From positions 1-64,000 of the forward strand of contig JBDRWD010000008.1 of NCBI GenBank assembly GCA_039802205.1: a stretch of DNA of 64,000 bases. Direction: 5' to 3'. The notes beneath the pieces were generated by a model that was not told where the DNA came from, made no database searches, and saw only the letters and a program-made list of their open reading frames with translations. This DNA comes from a candidate division WOR-3 bacterium. GTDB lineage: Bacteria > Hydrothermota > Tepidihabitantia > SM23-42 > JAOAFX01. Numbering within the stretch: the first letter of the stretch is position 1; each line of letters begins with the position of its first letter. Shown here piece by piece: positions 43,898 to 51,374 of this stretch. The position numbers and the translations under genes are program-made.

Positions 43898-44794
43898 ATG
43901 AAGGTAGGTATTCTCATCCCGGCTTATAATGAAGTAGAAAATATACCACACCTTATCGCAATGTTGGACGTTTTTATAAAAGAACACCCCGATTATAAGA
44001 TTGTATTCGTTGACGATGGTTCCACGGATGAAACCCAGGAAGTTTTAAAAGGATATAAAAGAGACTATCTTACAGTTGTCCGACACAAAAGGAACTTAGG
44101 CAAAACCCAGGCCCTCATCACCGGTGCCCAATCTACCGATGCTGACATTCTGGTGATTTACGATGCCGATATGCAATTTGACATTGCGGATGTTCCTAAG
44201 TTAGTAGATTTGATTGTAAAAGAAGATGCGGATGTTGCTACCGGATGGAAACAGGGGAAATATGAAAAAAAATTCGTCTCCAGCATCTATAACTGGTGTG
44301 GTCGAAAATTATTCAATCTGAAAGTGCATGATATGAATGCAATCAAGGCTTTCCGTCGCGAGGTAATCGAAACAATCCCCCTGCGCCGGGATTGGCATAG
44401 ATATATCGTGCCGCTGGCTTCGGAGTACGGATTTTTGATAAAAGAAATACCGGTAAAATTAAGACCCCGCTTATATGGTACACCCAAGTATCAAAAAAAG
44501 AGCCGCATCATCATTGGGTTCTTTGATCTGCTTGCGGTGAAATTCCAATTATCCTTTTTGAGAAAACCTCTGCTTTATTTTGGAACTGCCGGGATGTTTC
44601 AAACTCTTCTGGGAATCCTAATTGGTATTGTTGCCATCATTCTCCGGCTCTTCGGACATGGTTTCCGTCCATTGCTTTATTTAGTAATTCTTCTTATCGT
44701 CTCTGGTATCCTCTTTTTCGCCTTGGGCCTCATCGGAGAAGCAATCCGAGCTATAATTGACCGCTTAGAGAAAATTGAGGCACGCAATAATTAA
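43898..44794 (+). CDS. Family 2 glycosyltransferase, membrane-anchored (dolichol-phosphate-mannose-synthase-like)
   Basis: This is a 298-residue protein from ATG 43898 (an earlier ATG at 43868 lies upstream of the -10 box). The GT-A domain has ILIPAYNEVENI, VFVDDGSTDET, and DADMQFD with the DxD metal site. RRDWHRYIVPLASEYGF and KLRPRLYGTPKY are typical of polyprenyl-phosphate glycosyltransferases of the DPM1/GtrB type. Two membrane segments lie at the C-terminus. It should transfer a sugar to undecaprenyl phosphate for cell-surface glycan synthesis. The next gene starts at its stop. Confidence 0.88.
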   Translation: MKVGILIPAYNEVENIPHLIAMLDVFIKEHPDYKIVFVDDGSTDETQEVLKGYKRDYLTVVRHKRNLGKTQALITGAQSTDADILVIYDADMQFDIADVPKLVDLIVKEDADVATGWKQGKYEKKFVSSIYNWCGRKLFNLKVHDMNAIKAFRREVIETIPLRRDWHRYIVPLASEYGFLIKEIPVKLRPRLYGTPKYQKKSRIIIGFFDLLAVKFQLSFLRKPLLYFGTAGMFQTLLGILIGIVAIILRLFGHGFRPLLYLVILLIVSGILFFALGLIGEAIRAIIDRLEKIEARNN

Positions 44795-45801
44795 TGAGTG
44801 AATTTGATAAAGGGGACAAAAAAAAGAAAAACATAGGCATCCTCTGGACAATCCTGCGGATTTTGATTGGCTGTGGATTAATCATTCTTCTATTCATAAA
44901 GCTTGATGCAGAAAAAATCCTGTCCAATTTGAAAAATATGCGAATGATTTATCTTTTCCTTGCGCTCATCCCCTATCTCTTATTCATCATCGTTTCTACC
45001 TGGCGCTGGCAGGTGCTGCTTGAGTATCGAAAAATCAATATTCGCTTCAAAGATTCTTTAATCATCTATTTTATTGCCCTTTTTTTTAATAACTTTCTAC
45101 CCACCACAGTAGGGGGAGATGTGATGAGGGTCTTTTATACAATGAAAAATAATAAAACCGATGCAATTGCAGTAGTAATTGCCGACCGCATGCTGGGATT
45201 TATTGGTTTGTTCATCTTTGGACTTTTTGCCGTGCTTTATCTTTATTTAATGCAGAAACGAAGTGAATTTCTATCCCTCATGGTGATAGGGCTCATCCTA
45301 CTTACTCTTCTCACCTCCCTCCTCTTCTCAGAGCGCGCTTATTCTCTTCTCCAACCGGTCCTGGCTCATTTAAAAGTCTTCGGGTTAGGTGAAAAAATAA
45401 ATAACCTCCACCGGACGATGACCGAATTCGGCAGTGCCTACAAGGTAATCTTTATCTGCCTGTTGCAATCAATCATTATCCAAGCACTCCTTGCCTTCTC
45501 TCCTTTTCTGGTCCTGCGCAGTATGGGTAATTTTCAAGTCTCCATTCTCCCCTTTTTTATCTATCTGCCGATAATAAATGTCATCTCCATGCTCCCGATT
45601 TCCTTTAATGCCCTCGGGGTTCGGGAAAATGCCTATGTTTTGCTTTTCAGTCGGGCGGGTTTGAATGGCGAAACATCCCTTACCGTTTCGCTTGTCTCAT
45701 TTTTTTTAGCATTCTTGTGGTCGCTTTTGGGTGGAATATTTTTTATTTTTTATAGAAAGCCTCCAACTTCTGAAAATCTGAAGAAAAAAGGAGGAATATG
45801 A
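44794..45801 (+). CDS. Lysylphosphatidylglycerol-synthase-fold (UPF0104/YbhN) membrane protein
   Basis: This 335-residue, eight-helix membrane protein has the FNNFLPTTVGGDVMRVFY motif of the AglD/LPG-synthetase transmembrane family and the later NALGVRENAYVLLF motif. In glycan operons such proteins act as flippases or lipid-carrier factors. It overlaps the stop of the glycosyltransferase gene by one base and the next gene by four. Confidence 0.85.
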   Translation: MSEFDKGDKKKKNIGILWTILRILIGCGLIILLFIKLDAEKILSNLKNMRMIYLFLALIPYLLFIIVSTWRWQVLLEYRKINIRFKDSLIIYFIALFFNNFLPTTVGGDVMRVFYTMKNNKTDAIAVVIADRMLGFIGLFIFGLFAVLYLYLMQKRSEFLSLMVIGLILLTLLTSLLFSERAYSLLQPVLAHLKVFGLGEKINNLHRTMTEFGSAYKVIFICLLQSIIIQALLAFSPFLVLRSMGNFQVSILPFFIYLPIINVISMLPISFNALGVRENAYVLLFSRAGLNGETSLTVSLVSFFLAFLWSLLGGIFFIFYRKPPTSENLKKKGGI

Positions 45802-47087
45802 AAGTATGTATGATTGGCACGGGTTATGTCGGTCTTGTCTCAGGAACCTGCTTTGCCGAAATAGGTCATGAGGTGATATGTGTCGACAACGATGTCAAAA
45901 AAATTGAGATTTTAAAGAGTGGAGGAATTCCCATCTATGAGCCGGGATTGCTTCCGATGGTGGAAAGAAATGTAAAAGAAGGAAGATTGAAATTCACAAC
46001 CTCCATTGCTGAAGGTGTGTGCGAATCGCTCTTTATTTTCATCGCCGTGGGTACCCCCCCAAAAGAAAATGGCGAACCCGACCTCTCCAGTGTGGAAAAA
46101 GTGGCGAGTGAAATTGGAGCAGCAATGGAAGATTACAAAGTGATTGTGGAAAAGAGCACCGTTCCCGTTCAAACCGGGCGTTGGATCCGGACAATTGTAG
46201 AGCGGTTCAATAAACGAAAGGTTGAATTTGATGTTGCCTCCAATCCTGAATTTCTAAGAGAAGGTTCAGCAATTGAGGATTTCTTAAAGCCAGACCGAAT
46301 TGTACTGGGTGTGGAAAGTGAAAAAGCCAAAAATCTATTGTTAGAATTATACCGACCAATTAACGCCCCAAAAATCATCACCGACCTGGCAAGTGCCGAG
46401 TTGATAAAACATGCCTCTAATTCTTTTCTCGCAATGAAAATCTCCTTCATCAATGCCCTCTCCATCATCTGTGAACGTTCGGGTGCCGACATTCTCAAAG
46501 TGGCAGAAGGCATCGGGCTTGATAAACGGATTGGCCGGGATTTTTTGAATGCCGGTGTGGGATTCGGCGGTTTCTGTTTCCCTAAAGATTTGAAGGCATT
46601 CATCGGGATTGCGGAAAGACTTGGTTACGATTTTCGGTTATTGCGGGAAGTAGAAAGAATCAACGAAGAACAGATGCACCGAGTAACAAAGAAACTCCAA
46701 GACCTGTTGTGGAATTTGCGGGACAAAAAAATTGGTATTCTTGGACTTTCTTTCAAACCCAATACCGATGATATGAGATTTGCGCCTTCCATAACCATCA
46801 TCAACGATCTAAGAAAAGAAGGTGCCATAGTCCGAGCTTATGACCCGGTAGCCATGGAAAAAGCCAAAGAAATAATACCCGATATCGAATATGCACGAAA
46901 TCCGTACGAAGCAGCAGAAAATGCCGATGGGATAATTCTGGTCACCGAATGGGACGAATTTAAAAAATTAGATTTAAAAAAATTAAAAGAGCGGATGCGG
47001 CAGCCTGTATTTTTGGACGGCCGGAATGTCTTTGAGCCGGAAGAAATGAGAAAAATCGGTTTTATATATGCTGGGATAGGTCGATGA
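45798..47087 (+). CDS. ugd: UDP-glucose 6-dehydrogenase
   Basis: This 429-residue enzyme oxidises UDP-glucose twice to UDP-glucuronate with NAD. Motifs: the Rossmann start MIGTGYVGLVSGTCFAEIGH, VEKSTVPVQTG, SNPEFLREGSAIEDFL, and the active Cys in GFGGFCFPKDL. The C-terminal UDP-binding domain contains GLSFKPNTDDMRFAPS. It starts in the ATGA overlap with the preceding gene. With the next gene it forms a two-step route to UDP-xylose. Confidence 0.95.
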   Translation: MKVCMIGTGYVGLVSGTCFAEIGHEVICVDNDVKKIEILKSGGIPIYEPGLLPMVERNVKEGRLKFTTSIAEGVCESLFIFIAVGTPPKENGEPDLSSVEKVASEIGAAMEDYKVIVEKSTVPVQTGRWIRTIVERFNKRKVEFDVASNPEFLREGSAIEDFLKPDRIVLGVESEKAKNLLLELYRPINAPKIITDLASAELIKHASNSFLAMKISFINALSIICERSGADILKVAEGIGLDKRIGRDFLNAGVGFGGFCFPKDLKAFIGIAERLGYDFRLLREVERINEEQMHRVTKKLQDLLWNLRDKKIGILGLSFKPNTDDMRFAPSITIINDLRKEGAIVRAYDPVAMEKAKEIIPDIEYARNPYEAAENADGIILVTEWDEFKKLDLKKLKERMRQPVFLDGRNVFEPEEMRKIGFIYAGIGR

Positions 47088-48022
47088 AAGTATTGATCAC
47101 TGGAGGTGCCGGCTTCATCGGCTCTCATCTGGTCGATTACTACTTAAACCAAGGTGCCGAGGTCATCGCCCTTGATAATCTCATTACCGGCCGCGAGGAG
47201 AATATCAAACACAACTTTTCGAATAAAAAATTCCGATTTATAAAAGGCGATGTCTGCGATTTTCCGGGCTTAAAAGAGGATATCGATTTACTCCTCCACT
47301 TCGCTTCGCCAGCAAGTCCATTTGATTATCTAAGATATCCGATAGAGACGATGAAAACCGCCGCATTGGGGACGATCAATATGCTGGAACTCGCCCGGAA
47401 CAAAAACGCACGCTTCCTTTTGGCTTCAACGAGCGAAGTATATGGCGACCCTCTAATCCATCCCCAGGTAGAAGAATACTGGGGAAATGTCAATCCGGTT
47501 GGAGTGCGTTCGGTTTATGATGAAGGAAAACGATTCGCGGAAGCACTGACCGTTGCCTATCATCGGAAATATCACTTGCGGATAAATATTGTCCGGATAT
47601 TCAATACCTACGGGGAGCGGATGCGTCCGGGCGATGGCCGGGTAATCCCAACCTTCATCGAACAGGCATTGAAAAATGAACCAATTACCATCTTTGGCGA
47701 TGGAACCCAAACCCGCAGTTTCTGCTATATCAGTGATTTGATAAGAGGTATTGCATGTTTGGCCGAAACTGACTATCCCTTGCCCATCAATCTGGGCAAT
47801 CCCAAAGAGTTCACCATCCTCCAGCTTGCCCAGAAGATAAAAATTCTGTGTAACAGTCAAAGCACATTTATTCACAAACCCCTTCCCGAAGATGACCCGC
47901 ATCGGAGAAACCCGGATATCACTAAAGCTAAAAAAATTCTCAAGTGGGAACCGGTGGTAGATCTTGATGAAGGACTTAAACGAGTTATCGCCTGGTTCAA
48001 AACCACTCTCTTCAATGATTGA
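47084..48022 (+). CDS. UDP-glucuronate decarboxylase (UDP-xylose synthase-like)
   Basis: This is a 312-residue short-chain dehydrogenase of the extended type. NAD motif TGGAGFIGSHL, LLHFASPASPFDYL, and the active-site Tyr/Lys in RSVYDEGKRFAEAL. The YDEGKR context and the LASTSEVYGDPLIHPQ stretch point to the UDP-glucuronate decarboxylase branch rather than a 4-epimerase. It takes the product of the upstream dehydrogenase. It overlaps that gene by four bases and closes the operon. Confidence 0.9.
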   Translation: MKVLITGGAGFIGSHLVDYYLNQGAEVIALDNLITGREENIKHNFSNKKFRFIKGDVCDFPGLKEDIDLLLHFASPASPFDYLRYPIETMKTAALGTINMLELARNKNARFLLASTSEVYGDPLIHPQVEEYWGNVNPVGVRSVYDEGKRFAEALTVAYHRKYHLRINIVRIFNTYGERMRPGDGRVIPTFIEQALKNEPITIFGDGTQTRSFCYISDLIRGIACLAETDYPLPINLGNPKEFTILQLAQKIKILCNSQSTFIHKPLPEDDPHRRNPDITKAKKILKWEPVVDLDEGLKRVIAWFKTTLFND

Positions 48023-48075: not shown

Positions 48076-48099
48076 GTATATATAACCAGGAGGTAGCGG

Positions 48100-50169
48100 A
48101 TGAAAAAGCCCTGTCTTTTGATAATATCTTTATGTCTGGTGTTTTATTGTGCAAAAAAAGAGGAACTATTAAAAGGCGAAAAGGGTGGAAAGCTCATAAT
48201 CGGCACAATGGATTTACCCAGTGTACTCTCTCCTTTGCAACCCTCAATGTTGGGATCCAATGAGATTCTTGATTTGCTATTCATGAGATTACATCGTCAG
48301 GACCCGCATACCGGAAGGATGAAACCCGAATTAGCTTCCTCTTGGGAGTTTTCAGAAGACCTCACCTCCATCACCTATTATTTGAGAAAAGATATCAAAT
48401 GGTGGGACGGTGAACCAGTGACGGCTGAAGACATTCTTTATACCTATGAAAAAATGCAAGACCCCAAAACCAATTATCCTTTCATCGCTTCACTCAAATA
48501 TATCAAAAAGGTGGAATTGCTTGATAAATACACCATAAAATTCACCTTTAGCCAGGTCTATGCAGATTTGCTTACCGACTCGGATATCATGCCGGTTCCA
48601 AAACATATTTATGAAAAATATGGTGCTGAGTTCGGAACGACCAAAATTGTGGGCAACGGTCCCTATATGGTTAAAGAATGGGTGCCCGGGTCAGGTCTGG
48701 TTCTTATTGCTAATGAAAATTACTACCGTGGAAGGCCACCTCTTGATGAGATCACGATCAAATACTATAATAATGCACCCGCAATGATTGCAGATTTTGA
48801 ACAGGGGAATATTGACATAATCTTGAATCTCACTCCAGCGGATGCCAAAAGATTATCCAGCAATCAGAATATCAATATCGTTTCGCAAACTGGAAATAGT
48901 TATGTTTACATTGGATGGAATTTAGCGAATGAGTTTCTGAGGGATAAAGAAATTCGCAAAGCCTTGACCATGGCGATAAATAGAACCCAGATTCTAAACG
49001 ATGTGCTTTTAGGTATGGGACAGATTTCACTAGGTCCTTTACCCCCATCATCCTGGGCATTCAATGAGAATATCAATCCTATAGAATTCAATCCCGTAAA
49101 GGCGAAAGAGATTCTTACCAGCAAGGGATTTGAAGACCGTAACCGCAATAAAATCATCGATAAAAATGGCAAAGATTTTACCCTGACAATAATTACCAAT
49201 GTTGAAAATCCGGAACGCGTCCAGATTCTTAACTTTGTCGCAACCTATCTCTCCCAACTCGGTATAAAAGTGAACGCTCAAACAATGGATGTATCTTCCT
49301 TCATCTCTGCCCTGATAAGTCGGAAGTTTGACGGCTTCATCATGGGTTGGAGTGTGGGAGATAAAATCGATCCATACCCTTACTGGCACTCGGACCCGAA
49401 TCGGGGTAGATTCAACTTCGTTGGCTATCGGAATCCAGTGATCGATTCACTCATTGAAGTTGGAACACTGGTGTTGAACCGGAAAAAGGCTAAAGAAATC
49501 TGGGGCGAGTTTCAGAGGATCATCTATGAAGATCAACCCTATACCTTCCTTGTGGTTCCCAACGATGTCGCTGCGAATTATAAAAGGGTAAAAGGGATTG
49601 AAGAAAGAATTTCCCTTGCCAATGCCTATACTTACTGGATTCCTGAAGCAGAAAGGCGCGTGGCTGTCGTGGCAAAAATCACTCCTCCCACATCATCTCC
49701 CGGAGTTACTCCTCCTCCAGCAGCTCCTGCCACTACCACTCCCGCTCCTGTCACTCCACCCCCCACTACCCGGAGAGAGGAAACCCCCAAACCGCCTCCT
49801 ACGGTATCGCCAGAAAAACTTTTAGAAGCTGCAGCATCTAAAGAAACAACCACTGTTGCCGCACCCCCTCCCCCTCCTGTGACCCCGCCTAAACCTTCAG
49901 TAATTACCCGTCCGGAACCAATCAAAAGAGTACTGCCTAAATATCCGGAGGCAGCACGGGCAATTGGTGCTACCGGCAAAGTGATAGTGAAAGTCGTTGT
50001 TGGCATTGATGGCAAGGTTAAATCTGCCACTATCTATTCCAGTTTCGGCAATCCAGCATGTGAGGAAGCGGCACTGGCGGCGGCCAAACAATGGGAATTT
50101 AAACCTGCTACCAAGGATGGCGAACCATTTGAACAGACGATCCAGATTCCGTTTGATTTTAAACCTTAG
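48100..50169 (+). CDS. Lipoprotein: family 5 solute-binding domain fused to a TonB C-terminal domain
   Basis: This is a 689-residue protein. A lipoprotein signal (KKPCLLIISLCLVFYC, lipid on Cys17) is followed by an oligopeptide/nickel-type SBP_5 domain from about 30 to 530 (WWDGEPVTAEDILYTYEKM, VGNGPYMVKEW, AMIADFEQGNID, the RKALTMAINR motif). A Pro/Thr/Ala-rich linker (about 535-610) leads to a TonB C-terminal domain: RVLPKYPEAARAIGATGKVIVKVVVGIDGKV, AALAAAKQWEFKPA. I know no standard family with this fusion. There is no transmembrane TonB anchor, and no permease genes follow, so the role is likely in surface assembly or signalling, not classical import. Confidence 0.85.
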   Translation: MKKPCLLIISLCLVFYCAKKEELLKGEKGGKLIIGTMDLPSVLSPLQPSMLGSNEILDLLFMRLHRQDPHTGRMKPELASSWEFSEDLTSITYYLRKDIKWWDGEPVTAEDILYTYEKMQDPKTNYPFIASLKYIKKVELLDKYTIKFTFSQVYADLLTDSDIMPVPKHIYEKYGAEFGTTKIVGNGPYMVKEWVPGSGLVLIANENYYRGRPPLDEITIKYYNNAPAMIADFEQGNIDIILNLTPADAKRLSSNQNINIVSQTGNSYVYIGWNLANEFLRDKEIRKALTMAINRTQILNDVLLGMGQISLGPLPPSSWAFNENINPIEFNPVKAKEILTSKGFEDRNRNKIIDKNGKDFTLTIITNVENPERVQILNFVATYLSQLGIKVNAQTMDVSSFISALISRKFDGFIMGWSVGDKIDPYPYWHSDPNRGRFNFVGYRNPVIDSLIEVGTLVLNRKKAKEIWGEFQRIIYEDQPYTFLVVPNDVAANYKRVKGIEERISLANAYTYWIPEAERRVAVVAKITPPTSSPGVTPPPAAPATTTPAPVTPPPTTRREETPKPPPTVSPEKLLEAAASKETTTVAAPPPPPVTPPKPSVITRPEPIKRVLPKYPEAARAIGATGKVIVKVVVGIDGKVKSATIYSSFGNPACEEAALAAAKQWEFKPATKDGEPFEQTIQIPFDFKP

Positions 50170-50288: not shown

Positions 50289-51374
50289 ATGAAAAAATTA
50301 ATCGTGATCGCTTTTATTTTTTTATTGGCCGGTGCTGAATGGCAGAAGCGGGATGAATTTAGCTTACCCAAAGGAATCCAGATAAATGACATAAAAGTCG
50401 GAGCTGATGGTAATATCTGGATTTTGACCAAATCTTCGATTTCTCGGCTTGAACCCGGGAAGAGAAATCTCAGCCTATTCTCAGAAATTCGGGAAGCGAA
50501 GCTTTTCGCCGTGGATGACGACTTCTTTATTGTGGATGCCAACAATAAGATTTCGGTGCTTTCCCCCAGTGGCGAGGTGAATAACATTCCCGTGCCTTTG
50601 CTCAATCCGCTCCAGGCAGAACTATTGAAGATCGGTGGTAAGGAAGTGCTGGCAATCGGCGAACCCAACCGGATTATCTTCATTGAGAGAAATGAAATCA
50701 TTGGAAGTTTGACCACCAACCTCAAAAAATTCTCAATTCGTCCCCGGATTGATGGAAAAGGTGAAATCGTAATTTATACCATGAATAACAATCAGATACA
50801 TCGTTGGACGGGTAAGGATCTGAAAGCACCTACAGACTTTAAAAACGAGTTATTATACAGTGCTCCGGAAAACATCTTAGACTTTACCACCGGTTTCGAC
50901 GAGAAAAGTTACATACTGGTTAAAGATTCCATCATTGTACTCAATGACAAGGGTGAACGCGAAGTCAGCATCGTCCATGAATCCATCACGCCTGAGGCAC
51001 GAATTTACCCTTATCTCACCAATAATAACCTCCTCCTCTTCAATCCGAATGAGAAGAAACTGATCATATTCTCTCCTATCCGTTCCGCCTCTCCGGAGAT
51101 CGTGATTTTGCATAAAAATCGACCGAATCCTGTGGAAAATTACACCGAGTTCGAATTCACCCTTAACGAGCCTATGTATCTTACCTTCACGATCTATAAT
51201 CTCATCGGGAAACCGGTGAAGGTTCTCGCTCACGGATTTTATAACAAAGGGACATACACCATCCCCTGGAATGCTGATGATGAAAAAGGATTACCGGTAC
51301 CTAACGGTGTTTATTTCTATCGGCTGGAAACCAAAAAGGGTGTGTTGATAAAACAATTGATCGTTCTCAAATAA
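50289..51374 (+). CDS. Secreted propeller-like protein with FlgD/Por-type C-terminal domain
   Basis: This 361-residue protein has a signal peptide ending near AGAEW. Residues 25-260 show loosely repeated units (IKVGADGNIWILTKSSISRLEPG, LFAVDDDFFIVDANNKISVLS) like those of bacterial surface or sensor propellers. The last 85 residues (NRPNPVENYTEFEF, IYNLIGKPVKVL, GTYTIPWNADDEKG, GVYFYRLETKKG) form a FlgD-Ig-like sorting domain. Function unknown; it may share a transcript with the PP-loop gene 6 nt downstream. Confidence 0.75.
   Translation: MKKLIVIAFIFLLAGAEWQKRDEFSLPKGIQINDIKVGADGNIWILTKSSISRLEPGKRNLSLFSEIREAKLFAVDDDFFIVDANNKISVLSPSGEVNNIPVPLLNPLQAELLKIGGKEVLAIGEPNRIIFIERNEIIGSLTTNLKKFSIRPRIDGKGEIVIYTMNNNQIHRWTGKDLKAPTDFKNELLYSAPENILDFTTGFDEKSYILVKDSIIVLNDKGEREVSIVHESITPEARIYPYLTNNNLLLFNPNEKKLIIFSPIRSASPEIVILHKNRPNPVENYTEFEFTLNEPMYLTFTIYNLIGKPVKVLAHGFYNKGTYTIPWNADDEKGLPVPNGVYFYRLETKKGVLIKQLIVLK

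Follow-up and report, generated by a model that had tools for sequence, protein, structure and literature searches.

A predicted SBP_5-type lipoprotein with a TonB C-terminal domain in candidate phylum WOR-3: a possible capture protein beneath TonB-dependent receptors

Introduction

Opinions differ on how a TonB-dependent receptor transfers its cargo to a periplasmic binding protein. TonB is reported to contact two such proteins, FhuD and BtuF (Carter 2006 and James 2009, cited in PMC3813593 and PMC9853854), which suggests a scaffold role for TonB. In these contacts, a periplasmic binding protein is brought to the C-terminal part of TonB, the two partners are separate proteins and an importer (BtuCD or FhuBC) is present. 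The fusion protein from candidate phylum WOR-3 described here resembles this arrangement, but it is a single covalent protein and its class has no detected Opp/Dpp importer. FhuD and BtuF are solute-binding proteins (SBPs) of cluster A-II, and the SBP of the fusion belongs to cluster C.

Two further kinds of protein are close to the fusion. By sequence, the solved protein closest to its SBP part is AppA of B. subtilis (1xoc, profile match over aa 22–514, 8e-92), and the fold is common to the oligopeptide-binding proteins of AppA/Opp4A type. The fusion differs from these by the added linker and TonB C-terminal domain (CTD), by a score of 222 bits with the Opp4A model (NCBIfam, equivalog cut-off 650) and by the missing Opp/Dpp permease in the class. 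With the TonB energy transducer it has a complete TonB_C domain and a Pro-rich linker in common, and in one genus its CTD is nearest to that of an adjacent TonB. It differs from TonB in carrying a lipoprotein signal instead of a membrane helix, in lacking ExbBD coupling and in the 500-residue SBP that precedes the linker. Both SBPs and TonB-family proteins are known kinds, and the fusion is a variant of these, not a new category. No published report of an SBP_5-TonB_C architecture was found in the literature searched, in keeping with an earlier note on this DNA, whose author knew of no named family with this order; none was found here either.

A covalent fusion of an SBP and a TonB CTD that is kept phylum-wide is a Rosetta-stone case and makes the hand-over question testable with purified parts.

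Results and discussion

Gene and signal peptide

The fusion gene occupies positions 48100..50169 (+ strand) of the window, the whole 64,000-nucleotide stretch of DNA that was analysed. It was assigned from the open reading frame, its translation, Pfam and orthologues. The frame opens with an ATG at 48100 and runs for 689 codons to a stop, without internal stops. A Shine-Dalgarno sequence (AGGAGG, 48088..48093, +) lies 6 bases 5' of the ATG.

The first 17 codons (48100..48150, +) encode a putative signal peptide with a lipobox, of which Cys17 is probably lipidated. This cysteine is kept in all 41 fusion sequences with an intact N-terminus, which bears out the lipoprotein anchor proposed in the earlier note. 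The lipobox of the window copy reads LVFYC, with an off-consensus Tyr at –1; in many relatives this position is Ser, Ala, Gly or Thr. The same note had described the protein as lacking the membrane helix of TonB, and this holds as well. The highest hydropathy over 19 residues (KD-19) is 1.51, compared with 2.75 and 2.49 for genuine TonBs, the former being the TonB of the window's own genome. An uncleaved N-terminal anchor serving as TonB membrane helix is ruled out by the hydropathy and the conserved cysteine. As the fusion protein has no TonB-type membrane helix, it cannot be coupled to ExbB/ExbD in the usual way.

Domain architecture and predicted structure

The domain order read from the letters in the earlier note, SBP_5 followed by a Pro-rich linker and TonB_C, is confirmed by Pfam, which places SBP_bac_5 and TonB_C in the one 689-aa frame, both far above the cut-offs. 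The SBP_5-type domain spans aa 30–515 (48187..49644, +), on the evidence of Pfam, the AppA profile match and Foldseek, and contains the Pfam core at aa 74–429 (E 2.6e-86, 290.5 bits, cut-off 32.4). Foldseek matches of its fold include AppA, C. jejuni NikZ and MppA (4toz). The TonB_C domain (aa 613–688, 49936..50163, +) is recognised by Pfam (E 1e-21, 77.6 bits, cut-off 24.6) and by the TonB-family CTD model TIGR01352 of NCBIfam (2.8e-18, 66 bits, cut-off 27.1). The best solved relatives of the C-terminal tail are TonB CTDs.

The AF2 model, built from 18 sequences with a mean pLDDT of 79.7, agrees with this order. Both the SBP and the TonB_C domain are predicted with confidence as well-folded units, and residues 521–599 between them are disordered except for one short helix (571–580). 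Together with the alignment of relatives, the model delimits the Pro-rich linker (49657..49923, +), which is 80–121 residues long in 42 fusion relatives. The short helix (49810..49839, +) carries the motif PEKLLEAA, in which PE..LLEAA is near-invariant; across the relatives a (P/A)E..LLEA-like pattern is conserved.

Conservation of the fusion

Forty-five genomes, which represent 12 families of candidate phylum WOR-3, have a full-length, uninterrupted fusion, with 34–82% identity. Relatives in the order and class of the window have it in one frame with 53–82% identity, and those in other WOR-3 families have 34–44%. The carriers are classed as candidate division WOR-3, Stahlbacteria or Hydrothermus and include the single-contig assemblies G005, G009, G011, G016 and G018. 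The count of 45 comprises full-length frames without internal stops; several further copies are truncated where their contig stops, and in the relative G002 the frame is broken into two overlapping pieces, on a contig with a coverage of about 3.8. An artefact of assembly or gene prediction that joined two genes can be dismissed with near certainty, since the full-length fusion is one frame in 45 genomes. The earlier note had allowed for a join found in this assembly only, and this is excluded by the other genomes, single-contig assemblies among them. The fusion is a genuine, old single protein that has been kept throughout this uncultured phylum. No SBP_5-TonB_C fusion turned up outside the phylum in 2,620 plasmid records matched by SBP_5, none of which covers 80% of the query. 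A match from Gemmatimonadetes (L110) runs past the end of its contig.

The mean majority-residue fraction over 42 fusion sequences is 0.57 for the SBP, 0.35 for the linker and 0.63 for TonB_C. By this measure TonB_C is conserved at least as well as the SBP part, and both domains are intact and under constraint throughout the phylum.

Of the 42 fusion CTDs in a 70-CTD tree, 36 form one clade (support 97/89). Vertical inheritance is likely, and the clade is consistent with one old fusion event. The fusion CTDs of two genomes of one distant genus, G126 and G127, group instead with the bona fide, membrane-anchored TonB whose gene adjoins the G126 copy (support 100/98). They are 62–64% identical to this TonB and 37–41% identical to sister fusions, whereas the SBP parts stay in their family clade (support 100). 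High identity is expected if the CTDs of fusion and TonB have to suit one set of receptors. Read most simply, the two CTDs are interchangeable and would face the same partner, and the likeness points to a shared docking partner. The AU tests are no more than suggestive, as vertical inheritance of the swapped CTD is not formally rejected (p 0.085 and 0.084). An apparent CTD exchange between the TonB (L127:10889-11488) and the adjacent SBP fusion (L127:8529-10601) is visible in G126, with 62% identity to each other and 37–39% to sister fusions.

An SBP without its usual permease

In the class of the window, SBP_bac_5 is present in 28 of 61 genomes, and it is in these 28 that the fusion, whole or in fragments, was found. 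Ten of them, including the single-contig assemblies G005, G009, G011 and G021, have no SBP_bac_5 match other than the fusion. The N-terminal models of the Opp/Dpp permeases, DppB-N (PF19300) and OppC-N (PF12911), exceed the cut-off in none of the 61 genomes but are detected in 11 and 10 of 14 control genomes, respectively. The role assumed for the SBP in the earlier note, service to an inner-membrane ABC importer of SBP_5 type, therefore finds no support in this class. An Opp-like operon that includes an SBP of its own can occur outside the class (G127). The maintenance of an SBP_5 family in a class without detectable Opp/Dpp importer means that SBP_5 need not signify ABC import.

It is very unlikely that the fusion is an ordinary ABC-importer SBP working with a permease of another type. 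The genome of the window (G000) has six BPD_transp_1 (PF00528) matches, which correspond to two Pst pairs and one UgpA/UgpE-like pair (G000:C4). No SBP gene adjoins the latter, and it might be the orphan partner. However, the PF00528 regions of G015, a 96% complete genome with the fusion, hold only one Pst pair and two permeases of TauC/SsuC type that are accompanied by periplasmic proteins of their own; these types were assigned from gene order and sequence. The UgpAE pair was set aside as partner permease because G015 lacks one. We know of no SBP_5 protein that serves a Ugp-type permease. SBP matches of 1047–1094 aa, considered as candidate SBP-permease fusions, were rejected; the two that were scanned are MCPsignal-SBP_5 proteins.

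A capture protein docking under receptors

The search for ExbB and ExbD suggested in the earlier note was positive. The genome of the window encodes six TonB_C proteins, three MotA/ExbB proteins (ExbB/TolQ-type) and seven plug-domain proteins above the cut-off. A compact cluster at G000:C21 has the order ExbB-ExbD-ExbD-TonB-(lipoprotein)-receptor, in which the ExbD genes are named by position and sequence.

Among the explanations considered, we favour, at a probability of about 0.4, a lipid-anchored periplasmic protein that docks beneath TonB-dependent receptors and captures the cargo they bring across the outer membrane. The observations behind it are the architecture, the phylum-wide conservation, the orphan status of the SBP, the presence of TonB-ExbBD systems and receptors and, in one genus, the likeness of the CTD to that of the neighbouring TonB. 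The lipidated protein would be anchored in one of the membranes, and the flexible linker of about 90 residues would allow TonB_C to reach the opposite one. There, TonB_C may pair with strands that resemble a TonB box in the TonB-dependent receptors of the outer membrane. The SBP_5 clamshell, which probably binds a peptide or a metal/peptide chelate of AppA/NikZ type, would be held where the receptor opens into the periplasm and take over the arriving cargo. Energy would be supplied not by the fusion but by the genuine TonB-ExbBD systems, whose genes lie elsewhere in the genome. The cargo could then be processed in the periplasm, given to a different transporter or serve as a signal; it would not be passed to an Opp/Dpp importer in the class, because none was found.

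The earlier note had suggested that outer-membrane transport and substrate capture are linked by a direct hand-over, and with inferred docking this is still the best reading. Its wider form, a phylum-wide, importer-independent receiver that plugs its own unenergised TonB domain into receptors and takes cargo by a built-in SBP, is put forward more tentatively. If true, the fusion would dock in the manner of TonB but passively, and it would support the proposal that TonB sites are points of hand-over from receptor to binding protein.

Gene neighbourhoods and alternative functions

Upstream of the fusion gene (43898..48022, +) lie genes for a glycosyltransferase 2, a flippase-like protein, a UDP-glucose dehydrogenase (by motif) and an NAD-dependent epimerase, a set that is syntenic in 8–10 of 12 neighbourhoods. 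In many relatives of the window's order an mscS gene is inserted between this set and the fusion. The neighbourhoods vary between families and no receptor is consistently linked to the fusion gene. Since no functional context is common to all families, the neighbourhood leaves the ligand unsettled. The alternative idea of the earlier note, an adaptor for a surface (T9SS) secretion system, has only a positional hint: porX (527 bits, cut-off 300) and a histidine kinase gene adjoin the fusion in many genomes of the sister family (f2). Both are absent from the neighbourhoods of the window's own family (f1). Downstream of the fusion, at 50289-51374 of the window, a 361-aa protein has a T9SS type A sorting domain (32.9 bits, cut-off 23).

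The porX and kinase genes also bear on an envelope sensor, in which the SBP_5 domain would have turned from transport to sensing. At the outer membrane it would detect peptides or chelates and signal to a two-component or T9SS regulatory pathway, with TonB_C only placing it. Such a sensor is unlikely, though it is the alternative to be taken most seriously. All five other SBP_bac_5 matches in the genome of the window are fused to chemoreceptor signalling domains (two, with MCPsignal) or located beside genes recognised by sequence as histidine kinases, the class has no SBP_5-type permease, and in family f11 a gene with an Hpt domain lies 4 bp downstream of the fusion (L118:7560-7895, with equivalents in L120 and L121). 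On the other hand, porX and the kinase gene are convergent to the fusion, not co-transcribed with it, and missing in its own family, and no signalling neighbour is common to all families. Less probable still is a cell-wall or envelope tether, in which the SBP would bind murein peptides and the TonB CTD peptidoglycan or an outer-membrane protein, for muropeptide recycling or envelope bracing. MppA, an SBP_5 protein that binds murein peptides, is among the fold matches, and TonB CTDs are reported to bind peptidoglycan as well. Peptidase genes directly precede the fusion in the same orientation in f21 (M42-M42-M23, the M42 genes encoding aminopeptidases and the M23 gene an endopeptidase; L129:5755-10645, L130, L131) and f20 (M23; L125:7849-10725), and mscS and envelope sugar genes lie upstream in the window's order. 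The M23/M42 context is, however, confined to these two families, and the top matches by sequence and fold are AppA and NikZ, not MppA.

A nickel or metallophore uptake module, in which a binding protein resembling NikZ/NikA would work together with a TonB-dependent nickel system, appears slightly less probable again; it is a ligand version of the capture-protein explanation, not a separate mechanism. NikZ of C. jejuni has the highest TMt (0.88) among the listed fold matches of the SBP part. A nikR gene follows the fusion directly in the same orientation, 13 bp downstream in G127 and 110 bp in G126. Near the fusion, G126 has larE-larB-larC and the bona fide TonB (L127:5074-11488), and the fusion of G127 is followed by a co-oriented gene for a TonB-dependent receptor (L128:4819-10820), which also favours the docking reading. 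[NiFe] hydrogenases are widespread in WOR-3 (PMC12542636). The nickel-related neighbours, however, are found in one genus only, and the NikA models score far below their cut-offs (149.5 of 600 and 137.6 of 393). Furthermore, His26 of NikZ, a nickel-contact residue, is not conserved in the profile alignment of the SBP part with solved proteins. NikZ-type nickel binding is held unlikely in view of the low NikA scores, despite the fold match. The capture protein docking under receptors, with peptides or a nickel chelate as possible cargo, is preferred, and the sensor and the tether are its main rivals.

In several families outside the class, a membrane protein of ~400 aa without reliable Pfam match adjoins the fusion (L112-L116, L122-L124).

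Other TonB_C and SBP_5 proteins

Further proteins of the class have lipoprotein-like starts and one or two TonB_C domains without a TonB helix (L038:14044-14826, L164:781-1482, L036:1405). Because TonB_C occurs on other helix-less proteins in the phylum, its presence by itself does not imply that a protein docks to receptors.

Two SBP_bac_5 proteins of the window's genome, encoded at L037:6132-9272 (–, G000:C14) and L038:7889-11047 (+, G000:C47), are soluble, ~1050 aa long and have no membrane helix; an MCP signalling domain is followed by a C-terminal SBP_bac_5 domain. The signalling domain is weak and below the cut-off in the L038 protein, and the L037 gene is located in a chemotaxis-like cluster recognised by sequence. 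These proteins may be cytoplasmic chemoreceptors with a built-in binding protein. SBP_5 matches in open reading frames of ~1050-aa size are found in most genomes of the window's order. At L039:4882-10985 and L043:4585-10267, in each of which one SBP_bac_5 protein was scanned, the SBP_bac_5 gene lies beside sensor-kinase, receiver, GGDEF or NtrC-type-like genes and no permease. SBP_5 is apparently used for sensing in this clade.
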